NCBI GenBank assembly: GCA_028714515.1 | Contig: JAQTMF010000002.1 | Span: 1-40,900 of the forward strand | Source of the DNA: Chthoniobacteraceae bacterium | GTDB lineage: Bacteria; Verrucomicrobiota; Verrucomicrobiia; Chthoniobacterales; Chthoniobacteraceae | Length of the DNA: 40,900 nucleotides | Direction of reading: 5' to 3' | Part shown: positions 6,883 through 10,184 of the stretch, piece after piece | Layout: every line of letters starts with the position of its first letter | Numbering within the stretch: position 1 is the stretch's first letter | Notes under the pieces: generated by a model | Seen by the model: the letters and a program-made list of their open reading frames with translations, nothing else | The model's database searches: none | What the model was told of the DNA's origin: nothing | Translations under genes and position numbers: made by a program

Positions 6883-8553
6883 TCAGCACGCTTTCATGCC
6901 GATCATATCGGTGTTGGCAGCCCCGGGCGGGACGATGGGAAACACGTTCTCCTCGGGGGCGATGGGCAGGTTCACCAGGCACGGCCCGGGCTGGGCGAGC
7001 GCTTCCTTGAGCATGGCGGCGGGATCGGCCGCTTCGCCGAGGTCGCAGGCGCGGATGCCGAAGGCCCGGGCGAGCGCGGCGAAATCCGGCTGGCGCTCGA
7101 AGACGGAGGCGGAGTAGCGCTTGCCGTAAAAGAGTTCCTGTTGCTGGCGGACCATCCCCAGGCGGTTGTTGTTGAGCAGGATCACCGTCACATCCAGGTT
7201 CCACTCGGCCAGCGTGGCCAGTTCCTGGACGTTCATCAAAAGCGAGCCGTCGCCGCTCACGCAGACCACGCGGCGTCCGGGCGCGGCCAGCGCCGCCCCG
7301 ATGGCGGCGGGGAGCCCAAAGCCCATCGTGCCCAGCCCGCCGGAGGTCAGGAACGTCCGGGGACGGCGCACGGGGTAGCCCTGGGCCATCCACATTTGAT
7401 GCTGGCCCACGTCGGTGGTGACGATGGTTTCCGGCGTGAGGAATGCGCCGAGCGCCTGGCAGAACGCCAGCGGGTGCAATCCGCGTTCGCGCCGGGGGAC
7501 GGCGAGCGGGTGGCTCGCCTTGAGTTCCGCCGCGCGTTGCCGCCAGGCGGGGCGTTCGCGGGGCGGCACCAGCGGCAGAAGCTGGCGCAACACCGCGCCC
7601 ACATCCCCGGCCACGGAGACATCGGCGGGCTTGATCTTGTCGATCTCGCAGGGGTCGATCTCGATGTGGATGATCCGCGCCTCCGGGCAGAACCGGGCCG
7701 CGTGGCCGGTGGCCCGGTCGTCGAACCGCGCCCCCAGCACCACGAGCAAGTCGGCTTCGTCCAAAATATAATTGGTGCACGGCGCTCCGTGCATCCCCAG
7801 CATGCCGAGGGAGAGCGGGTGATCGCACGGGATCGCGCCCAGCCCCATCAGCGTGCTGGCCGCGGGCGCGCCGAGGCGCTCGGCCAGTTCCAAGGCGAGC
7901 CCGCCCGCGTCCGCGCCGATCACCCCGCCGCCCACGTACAGAACGGGGCGCTCGGATGCGGCCAGCAGCGCCGCCATTCGGGCCAGCGCTTCTTGCGAGA
8001 CGGCGGGGGCGGGCGCGGGTCTGCCCGGCTCGGGCCAATCCGTCACCTCGCATTCGCCCAGGAAAACGTCCTTGGGCACATCCACCACCACCGGGCCGGG
8101 GCGGCCGGATTCGGCGATCTCGAACGCCCTCGGGATCACGTCGAAAAGCTCCTCGGTCTGCATCACCATGAAGCTGTGTTTCGTGATCGGCAGCGTGAGT
8201 CCAAAGGTGTCCACCTCCTGGAAGGCGTCCGTGCGCAGGAGCGAGCGCGCCACCTGGCCCGTGATGGCCACCAGCGGCACGGAGTCGAGCTTCGCGTCGG
8301 CGATGGCCGTCAGCAGGTTCGTCGCGCCCGGCCCGGAGGTGCCCAGGCAGACGGCGGCCTTCCCCGTGACGCGCGCCATCCCCTGCGCGATAAAGCCCGC
8401 CCCTTGTTCATGCCGCGCCAGGACGTGCCGCAGCGGGCTCTCGTAAAGGGCGTCATACAAGGGCAGGATCGCGCCGCCGGGGATGCCGGAGAGCGTGGTG
8501 ACGCCCTGGCGTTCCAGTAATTTGCAGAGGATTTGGGCTCCGTTGAACTTCAT
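6883..8553 (-). CDS. ilvB: acetolactate synthase large (catalytic) subunit
   Basis: The 556-residue enzyme condenses two pyruvates to acetolactate (valine/leucine branch), or pyruvate with 2-oxobutyrate (isoleucine branch). The N-terminal pyrimidine-binding domain has the activating glutamate E49 (RHEQGAGF) and the GTSGPGATN loop. The C-terminal ThDP motif runs from GDGSLLMN to LNNNRLGM. Methionines and residues around MVRQQQELFYGKRYS fit anabolic AHAS, not catabolic AlsS. No ilvN regulatory subunit or ilvC lies next to it; rpmE follows directly. A Val/Leu-rich leader peptide and terminator lie upstream, implying attenuation. The start has no visible Shine-Dalgarno sequence. Confidence 0.95.
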   Translation of the reverse strand: MKFNGAQILCKLLERQGVTTLSGIPGGAILPLYDALYESPLRHVLARHEQGAGFIAQGMARVTGKAAVCLGTSGPGATNLLTAIADAKLDSVPLVAITGQVARSLLRTDAFQEVDTFGLTLPITKHSFMVMQTEELFDVIPRAFEIAESGRPGPVVVDVPKDVFLGECEVTDWPEPGRPAPAPAVSQEALARMAALLAASERPVLYVGGGVIGADAGGLALELAERLGAPAASTLMGLGAIPCDHPLSLGMLGMHGAPCTNYILDEADLLVVLGARFDDRATGHAARFCPEARIIHIEIDPCEIDKIKPADVSVAGDVGAVLRQLLPLVPPRERPAWRQRAAELKASHPLAVPRRERGLHPLAFCQALGAFLTPETIVTTDVGQHQMWMAQGYPVRRPRTFLTSGGLGTMGFGLPAAIGAALAAPGRRVVCVSGDGSLLMNVQELATLAEWNLDVTVILLNNNRLGMVRQQQELFYGKRYSASVFERQPDFAALARAFGIRACDLGEAADPAAMLKEALAQPGPCLVNLPIAPEENVFPIVPPGAANTDMIGMKAC

Positions 8554-8596: not shown

Positions 8597-8631
8597 AAAA
8601 AAAATCCCCTCCAGCGGCAGGCCGGAGAGGG
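8597..8631 (-). terminator. attenuator terminator in the ilvB leader
   Basis: On the minus strand CCCTCT pairs with GGAGGG and CGGC with GCCG around a CT loop (stem 8606-8631). Eight T residues follow (8597-8604). It lies 44 bases before ilvB and 23 bases after the leader peptide stop, the position expected of a transcription attenuator. Its 5' arm overlaps the sequence that can instead pair with the end of the leader ORF. Confidence 0.75.
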
Positions 8632-8671
8632 TTATCGTCAGTTTTTTGAACCCCTCACCGAGCCTCCGGCC
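8620..8671 (-). promoter_or_regulatory. antiterminator pairing in the ilvB leader
   Basis: On the minus strand GGCCGGAG (8664-8671, inside leader codons 27-29) is perfectly complementary to CTCCGGCC (8620-8627), which is part of the terminator 5' arm. The two structures exclude each other. A ribosome stalled at the upstream Val codons would leave GGCCGGAG free and favour antitermination. A ribosome at the stop codon (8655-8657) would cover it and allow termination. A further 9-base pairing, CCTCACCGA (8737-8745) with TCGGTGAGG (8653-8661), links the two ends of the leader ORF. Confidence 0.65.
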
Positions 8672-8750
8672 GTACAACGCCTACGAGCGCCACTCCCGCA
8701 AGAACGGGGCGGACGCTAAGGGCTACGGTTTGGAGATCGGTGAGGAACAT
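8655..8750 (-). CDS. branched-chain amino acid leader peptide for ilvB attenuation
   Basis: This 31-codon frame starts with ATG at 8748-8750 and ends with TGA. It includes the stretch VALSVRPVLAGVALVGVV, with seven Val and five Leu codons in 31 and no Ile. Regulatory leader peptides before ilv operons in Proteobacteria have the same character. The terminator with U-run and the competing pairing follow in the correct order. There is no obvious Shine-Dalgarno sequence, and the nearest promoter candidate leaves only about 8 bases of 5' leader. The peptide itself is not expected to have a function beyond sensing charged tRNA. Confidence 0.7.
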   Translation of the reverse strand: MFLTDLQTVALSVRPVLAGVALVGVVRPEAR

Positions 8751-8764
8751 TAGAATCTTGCAGC

Positions 8765-8793
8765 TCATTAACCGGGGAGCCCCGGCTTGTCAA
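8765..8793 (-). promoter_or_regulatory. candidate promoter of the ilvB leader
   Basis: On the minus strand a perfect TTGACA (8788-8793) is followed after 17 bases by TAATGA (8765-8770), a weak -10. The spacer holds a perfect inverted repeat, CCGGGG/CCCCGG. Transcription would begin near 8758, about 8 bases before the leader-peptide ATG. The ilvB unit is divergent from gltA. Confidence 0.5.
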
Positions 8794-8894
8794 TCTCCCA
8801 AAAGCCGCCTTTCGCTCTTTTTTTGGCATTTCGGGGCTCTTGCCGCACTTTTTCTTTTTCGCGGGCGGCGTTCCCTGCTATTGAATGAGGAGAT

Positions 8895-10184
8895 ATGCCA
8901 GAATTCGTCGAGTTTCAGTTGGACGGGAAATGCGTGCGGCTCCCCATTGTCGAGGGGACGGCCGGAGAAAAGGCCATTGATATCTCGACGCTGCGCGAAC
9001 AGACCGGCTACATCACGCTCGACAGCGGCTACGGCAACACCGGTTCCTGCGAGAGCGATATCACCTTTATCGACGGCGAGCAGGGGATCCTGCGCTACCG
9101 GGGGATTCCGATCGAGGAACTGGCGGAGAAATCCACCTTCATCGAAACGGCCTACCTCCTCATGTACGGCCACCTGCCGACGGGGTCGGAGCTGCACCAG
9201 TTTTCCCGGTTGCTCACGGAAAACGAGATGATCCACGAGGACATGAAGTACCACTTCGAGGGCTTCCCCTCGAACGCGCACCCCATGGCGATCCTCTCCT
9301 CCATGATCAACGCCTCGGGCTGCTTCCAGCCCCAGATGCTGGCCGCGCACAGCCGCAAGACCTTCGATCTGCACGCCGCGCGGCTCGTCTCGCAGGTGCG
9401 CACCATCGCCGCGTTTGCCTACCGCAAATCGCTCGGGCTGCCCATCATCTACCCGAAGCCGATTTACAAATACTCGGCCAACTTCCTGCACATGATGTTC
9501 TCGGAGCCGTATTGCGACTACGAGCTGAAGCCGGAAGTCGTCCGCGCGCTGGACTTGATCTTCATCCTCCACGCCGACCACGAGCAGAATTGCTCCACCT
9601 CCACCGTCCGCATGGTCGCCTCCAGCCGGGCCAGCCTGTTCGCGGGCGCGGCCGCCGGTGTCTGCGCCCTTTGGGGGCCGCTGCACGGCGGGGCCAACCA
9701 GGCCGTGCTGGAAATGCTGGAGCGCATTTACGAGGACGGCGACGACGGCACGAAGTTCATCGCCGCCGCCAAGGACAAAAAGAGCCGCAGCCGCCTCATG
9801 GGCTTCGGCCACCGGGTGTACAAAAACTACGACCCGCGCGCGCGGATCATCAAGCAACGCTGCGACGAACTGCTCGCCGCGCTCAAGGTCGAGGACCCGC
9901 TGCTGGACATCGCGCGCAACCTGGAACAGGCCGCGCTCAACGATCCGTACTTCGTCGAACGCAAGCTCTACCCGAACGTCGATTTCTACAGCGGCATCAT
10001 CATGCGGGCCATCGGCATCCCGGTGGAAATGTTCACCGTCATCTTCGCCATCGGGCGCATGCCCGGGTGGATCGCCAACTACCGCGAAACCATCGAAGAC
10101 CGCAACGCCCGCATCTACCGTCCCCGGCAGATCTACCAGGGCAAACCGCTCCAGCATTACGTGCCCATGCACGACCGGGAGTAG
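8895..10184 (+). CDS. gltA: citrate synthase
   Basis: The 429-residue protein has the length and N-terminal beta domain of the hexameric, Gram-negative-type (type II) citrate synthase. It condenses acetyl-CoA and oxaloacetate to citrate at the entry of the TCA cycle. The catalytic histidine motifs [11 protein letters not shown] and [14 protein letters not shown] are intact, and the C-terminal RMPGWIANY and RPRQIYQG segments are present. The ATG at 8895 is preceded by GAGGAG at 6-base spacing, one of the clearest Shine-Dalgarno sites here. It is divergent from the ilvB leader. Confidence 0.97.

Follow-up and report, generated by a model that had tools for sequence, protein, structure and literature searches.

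Known attenuators of acetohydroxyacid synthase genes

Leader-peptide attenuation is a known mechanism, and the case most relevant here is ivbL, as the leader before the orthologous ilvB is annotated in Escherichia coli records. Until a 2010 survey, leader-peptide systems were known only in Proteobacteria and Actinobacteria; the survey added the Firmicutes (PMC2965389). In Corynebacterium glutamicum, the ilvBNC attenuator (ilvB-II motif) combines a uORF rich in branched-chain amino acids (BCAA) with a terminator opposed by an antiterminator (PMC10272879, PMC11857589), and a paper that PMC10272879 cites (Morbach et al. 2000) states in its title that the leader peptide is made without a ribosome-binding site. 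Two further motifs are described in PMC10272879: ilvB-OMG, with BCAA-rich uORFs before ilvB in "various bacterial phyla" (41 representatives), and the Leptospira ilvB motif, whose BCAA-rich uORF before ilvB contains three or more Val codons in a row.

The window, that is, the whole 40,900-nucleotide stretch of Chthoniobacteraceae DNA analysed in this study, carries on its minus strand an ilvB gene of the AHAS I type and, upstream of it, what is very probably its control element, a ribosome-mediated transcription attenuator of the ivbL-ilvB type. The features, with the evidence for each, are as follows.

8788-8793 (-): -35 box TTGACA of the ilvB leader promoter (sequence; recurs in the genus and in locus L007)
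8765-8770 (-): -10-like box TAATGA, with a 17-nt spacer from TTGACA (sequence)
8655-8750 (-): leader ORF, MFLTDLQTVALSVRPVLAGVALVGVVRPEAR followed by a stop, 31 codons with 7 Val and 5 Leu (sequence, relatives, scoring of upstream regions)
8737-8745 (-): region 1, CCTCACCGA, at the start of the leader ORF, protector partner of region 2 (folding, comparison with L005)
8664-8671 (-): 5' strand of the antiterminator as first proposed, GGCCGGAG (complementarity to 8620-8627; specific to the window species)
8652-8665 (-): region 2, AGGCTCGGTGAGGG, with the leader stop codon at its centre (invariant motif, minimum-energy fold)
8619-8631 (-): region 3, CCCTCTCCGGCCT, which forms the 5' arm of the terminator and also pairs with region 2 (duplex, fold, ribosome model)
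8597-8630 (-): intrinsic terminator, stem-loop 8630-8606 (regions 3:4) and U-tract 8604-8597 (sequence, terminator scan)
6883-8553 (-): ilvB, acetohydroxyacid synthase catalytic subunit, AHAS I (E. coli IlvB) type (identity, tree)

An earlier note on this DNA had ascribed to the leader the logic of the enterobacterial ilv attenuators, and the comparison bears this out: the gene is an orthologue of E. coli IlvB (AHAS I), and ivbL occupies the same position before it. The E. coli ivbL-ilvBN locus also shares with the window a Val-rich leader ORF, an intrinsic terminator and the same predicted switch, and in both the stop codon lies inside region 2, within CCG-TAG-GG in enterobacteria and within CGG-TGA/TAG-GG in the window genus and L007, a locus from another family of the same order. 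The two differ in that the Val codons of the window are mixed with Leu and other codons and form no solid runs, the predicted 5' UTR is about 8 nt rather than about 20-28 nt, and no ilvN lies downstream. Beyond their Val content the IvbL and window leader peptides cannot be aligned. Peptides of such small length and low complexity give no basis for establishing common descent.

The C. glutamicum attenuator resembles the window leader in its BCAA-rich uORF and its opposed terminator and antiterminator but precedes an ilvBNC operon in another phylum. A BCAA-rich uORF is also common to the window and the ilvB-OMG and Leptospira motifs, which were compared by description, so that the sets may overlap. 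The enterobacterial ilvL attenuator of ilvG, of which the control set contains examples (L052, L058, L060), likewise places an AHAS gene under leader-peptide attenuation; unlike the window leader, it precedes a gene outside the AHAS-I clade, and its Ile codons are prominent. When searched against Rfam, the window region gave no match to leader or ilvB families at gathering or relaxed thresholds. The earlier note had also supposed that such a system was undescribed in Verrucomicrobiota, and the literature searched, to which most subscription-journal papers did not belong, contained no leader-peptide attenuator from that phylum. While the mechanistic novelty is low, what is apparently new is the lineage, the seemingly near-leaderless leader ORF and the association of switch and gene across phyla.

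The leader ORF and its promoter

The TTGACA promoter box and the ORF reported in the earlier note are both present on the minus strand (8793-8788 and 8750-8655), and the codon counts are correct. The distance from TTGACA to the leader start is 34-43 nt in all five members of the genus and L007, and the -10-like box reads TAACAC or TAACAA in congeners and TATATT in L007. A promoter scan reported no site in the window leader, as it accepts only -10 boxes with T in sixth position. From the spacing of these elements we infer that transcription starts near 8759. The 5' UTRs predicted in this way, from consensus spacing and with -10 assignments that are weak in several loci, measure 0-8 nt in the genus and L007, 0-15 nt in many other non-enterobacterial loci and about 20-28 nt in most enterobacterial controls. 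A 5' UTR as short as that predicted for the window has no room for a Shine-Dalgarno sequence, and the leader ORF would therefore be read from a nearly leaderless mRNA.

Leader ORFs were scored as the number of Val codons plus half the number of Leu and Ile codons in any 12 residues near the stop. The window scores 6.0, compared to 5.5-11 (median 9) in 33 AHAS-I loci and a median of 3.5 in 89 other ilvB loci, 17% of which score at least 6, several of these being enterobacterial leaders of the ilvL type. Breznakibacter xylanolyticus (Bacteroidota; L057) was counted among the other 89 loci, yet falls in the AHAS-I clade by the tree; with it added, a Val-rich leader ORF is present in all 34 scored loci of the AHAS-I type, which come from six phyla and include the ivbL-ilvB loci of Enterobacteriaceae. 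No Val-rich leader precedes this order's canonical ilvB genes (L008-L031), none of which scores 6 or more. Since loci were fetched by IlvB similarity only, the association between leader and gene was not selected for. That a Val-rich ORF arose by chance in GC-rich DNA beside a terminator is hardly conceivable: GTN codons are indeed common in GC-rich random sequence, but only 0.6% of shuffled upstream regions reach a score of 6 or more, all AHAS-I loci reach the window score or come within half a point of it, and the leader is conserved in relatives.

Between relatives, the leader peptides vary in sequence and length and keep their richness in Val and Leu; the leader of L007, for example, is the Val-rich MASTASFIPDSAIPTSVLSVVVVVTHDTR. 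This pattern bears on the idea that the short ORF is the gene of a small, functional hydrophobic protein and that the hairpin is merely the ordinary terminator of its transcript. Retention of the ORF in all relatives, together with a promoter and a terminator, would suit such a gene, but the peptide is conserved in neither sequence nor length, and its stop codon forms part of the pairing motif CGG-stop-GG, for which a free protein gene would have no use. We consider a small-protein gene exceedingly improbable and retain the leader ORF as the sensing part of an attenuator.

Individual leaders show some departures. In L003, the leader start, about 187 bases upstream of ilvB, is ATT, where its nearest relative L004 has ATG; this may represent a rare start codon, an internal GTG start or a decaying leader. 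The leader ORF of Accumulibacter (L034) is longer, with about 51 codons, and its Val codons are distant from the stop, so the geometry of the switch may differ there. An ORF on the plus strand of the window (8740-9231) that overlaps the leader and the start of gltA was rejected as a gene, since gltA is read in another frame.

Terminator and competing pairings

The terminator with eight T residues that the earlier note placed before ilvB is present: its stem (8630-8606) has 10 pairs and a 5-nt loop, is followed by T8 (8604-8597) and ends 43 bases before the ilvB ATG. The upstream neighbour, gltA (citrate synthase, 8895-10184, plus strand), is divergent from ilvB; with no gene upstream whose transcript it could end, the terminator must serve the leader/ilvB transcript. 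Folding of the whole leader is more stable than that of 199 of 200 dinucleotide shuffles (z -4.2). Terminators were detected automatically in 28 of 31 AHAS-I loci; of the other hairpins noted, those of L125 and L126 are strong with a short U-run and that of L045 lacks a U-tract. All leader elements recur in four congeners and in the 56%-identical orthologue L007, so that the leader ORF and stems, whose absence from relatives would have argued against the earlier reading, are found there. Here, as for the mutual exclusivity and the predicted switch described below, the basis is sequence and comparison.

The antiterminator proposed in the earlier note, an 8-base pairing of 8664-8671 with 8620-8627, stood only in part. 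Complementarity between 8671-8664 (GGCCGGAG) and 8627-8620 (CTCCGGCC) is perfect, and the best two-strand duplex of the window (p 0.005) uses this pairing together with 8656-8649:8633-8627. In the congeners, however, GGCCGGAG is not kept, whereas a pairing centred on the stop is: CGG-stop-GG, with TGA or TAG as the stop, is invariant across the six genomes in the alignment of the window genus and L007. For RNA free from 8671 onward, the minimum-energy fold of the single strand prefers this stop-centred arrangement, pairing 8665-8652 with 8631-8619 in 12 pairs around the leader stop, and 8671-8664 would lie under a ribosome positioned on the last two Val codons (8678-8673). It is thus unlikely, though a reasonable variant of the same attenuator that differs in this one detail, that the 8-base pairing is the working antiterminator; we take the pairing of region 2 with region 3 to fill that role.

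In addition, the full-leader fold contains a pairing that the earlier description lacked, in which 8745-8737 pairs with 8661-8653 as a protector and leaves the terminator intact. Region 1 was not aligned across loci by MAFFT, and the 1:2 helix was compared by hand. Relative to L005 (CCTTACCGG:CCGGTAGGG), the helix differs by two compensatory base-pair exchanges (C-G to U-A, A-U to G-C) and by one change on a single side, and the stop codon is switched from TGA to TAG; L007 has AUCCCU:AGGGAU at the corresponding place, and no alignment was obtained for region 1 of L006. The protector hairpin is clear in the window and L003-L005. In a two-strand duplex test of 28 loci, p<0.05 was reached by the 2:3 pairing in 12 loci and by the 1:2 pairing in five (only 18% exceeding shuffles); the test is informative only in part and appears to choose the wrong partners in Enterobacteriaceae. 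Outside this group of relatives, the Breznakibacter locus has a leader with a run of Val (MNIHLSTIVLSVVVVVVCQPPQG), in which CCTCCGCAGGG and CCCCTGCGGAG form the matching pairing, and a terminator with seven T residues.

According to the proposed mechanism, transcription would start just upstream of the Val/Leu-rich leader ORF. With ample charged tRNA-Val and tRNA-Leu, a ribosome would reach the leader stop and cover region 2 (8665-8652), so that region 3 could build the terminator with region 4 and RNA polymerase would stop at the U-tract. With charged tRNA scarce, the ribosome would stall on Val/Leu codons and leave region 2 exposed to capture region 3; no terminator would then form, and ilvB would be transcribed. 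On a leader without a ribosome, region 1 would pair with region 2 and the terminator would form by default.

These states were modelled with an assumed ribosome footprint and assumed energies, the RNA being free from 13 nt past the first base of the A-site codon. At equilibrium, the window terminator has a probability of 0.91 if no ribosome is present or if one stands at the stop; over Val stalls the mean is 0.13, compared to 0.87 when the leader is shuffled (0 of 40 shuffles as low). Across loci, the equilibrium test detects switching in only a minority and next to none in the Escherichia control, where terminator stability is too high; such a failure is to be expected of a switch governed by kinetics, and the test is not decisive. 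Because attenuation is settled before region 4 has been transcribed, the RNA was cut after region 3 in a further test, which was chosen after the equilibrium test proved uninformative on the Escherichia control. With the RNA ending at region 3, mean sequestration of region 3 over 28 loci rises from 0.10 at the stop to 0.70 at Val stalls (shuffled difference 0.16), with p<=0.05 in 20 of the 28, a count that overstates the number of separate tests, as do the other 28-locus counts, since congeners are not independent. Sequestration increases from 0.04 to 0.53 in the Escherichia control (L037), from 0.01-0.06 to 0.80-0.85 in L003-L005 and from 0.32 to 0.89 in the window (p 0.067); for L006, p is 0.15. 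Without a ribosome, the window and L003-L005 tend towards termination (0.14-0.22), in keeping with the protector; most other loci do not. In the folding model, therefore, antiterminator and terminator do exclude each other and a ribosome at the stop does cover the antiterminator, as the earlier note had held, with the antiterminator recentred on the stop at 8665-8652.

Terminator and antiterminator alone do not identify the sensor, and the 1:2 helix could in principle bind something else; the fold might thus be chosen by an uncharacterised riboswitch, a T-box or an RNA-binding protein, with the terminator and ORF both real. Such a sensor is very improbable, given that no Rfam family reaches threshold (the best, His_leader, scores 17.1 bits, E 1.2), that the Val content of the ORF is conserved across loci and the RNA sequence is not, and that the switch predicted by the truncated-RNA test turns on at or adjacent to Val codons. 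In the window, the codon-by-codon switch profile points chiefly to the Val and Leu codons at 8693-8676 as control codons. Attenuation of ilvB by a translating ribosome is the best explanation, and in function it would be the ivbL mechanism, most of the testable sequence features being in agreement, with the leader presumably translated and responding to the supply of Val and Leu.

The AHAS-I gene type and its distribution

Orthologues of the window ilvB are 78-80% identical in four genomes of the same genus and 56% identical in L007. The other sampled genomes of the order contain only more distant ilvB types, at best 41-46% identical, and the window genome also carries this second type (G000:C55). 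In a scan of named genomes, window IlvB is 56-61% identical to IlvB of Enterobacteriaceae and Accumulibacter. In the maximum-likelihood tree, a branch with support of 100/99 sets apart the AHAS-I type, which comprises Verrucomicrobiota, Enterobacteriaceae, Accumulibacter, Spirochaetota, Fibrobacterota, Myxococcota and Breznakibacter. It is found in 13 of 388 genomes in a sample of the phylum and 19 of 384 in a sample of the class.

In the window, the next gene after ilvB is rpmE, with no AHAS-I-type ilvN downstream. The sole ilvN-like gene found in the genome is canonical (161 aa), lies on another contig (G000:C18:18073-18543) and is 40% identical to the IlvN of L007, which, like several members of the class, has a short ilvN directly downstream of ilvB. 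The window genus thus has an AHAS-I catalytic subunit without a small subunit of its own.

A published model derives AHAS I from a duplication within Gammaproteobacteria and has it almost absent elsewhere, apart from rare transfers (PMC5727371). The Enterobacteriaceae AHAS I sequences group with Accumulibacter and Verrucomicrobiota branches with support 100/100 (L032-L039, L112-L127, L007). As judged from the tree, the position of Enterobacteriaceae among Verrucomicrobiota branches does not easily fit the duplication model. It is possible, in a balance that we regard as even, that the Val-codon attenuator and AHAS-I ilvB have been inherited together as a single unit in six or more phyla (Verrucomicrobiota, Pseudomonadota, Spirochaetota, Fibrobacterota, Myxococcota and Bacteroidota), with the leader ORF often translated, outside Enterobacteriaceae, from an mRNA that is nearly leaderless.

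These findings extend leader-peptide attenuation beyond mainly Proteobacteria, Actinobacteria and Firmicutes to a phylum without a described case in the literature searched. They tie the switch to a type of gene and not to a bacterial lineage, as it accompanies AHAS-I ilvB in every place where that gene was found and does not accompany the canonical ilvB of the order. If inheritance as one unit is true, enterobacterial ivbL-ilvBN would be a branch of an older, possibly mobile cassette of gene plus switch rather than an invention of Gammaproteobacteria.
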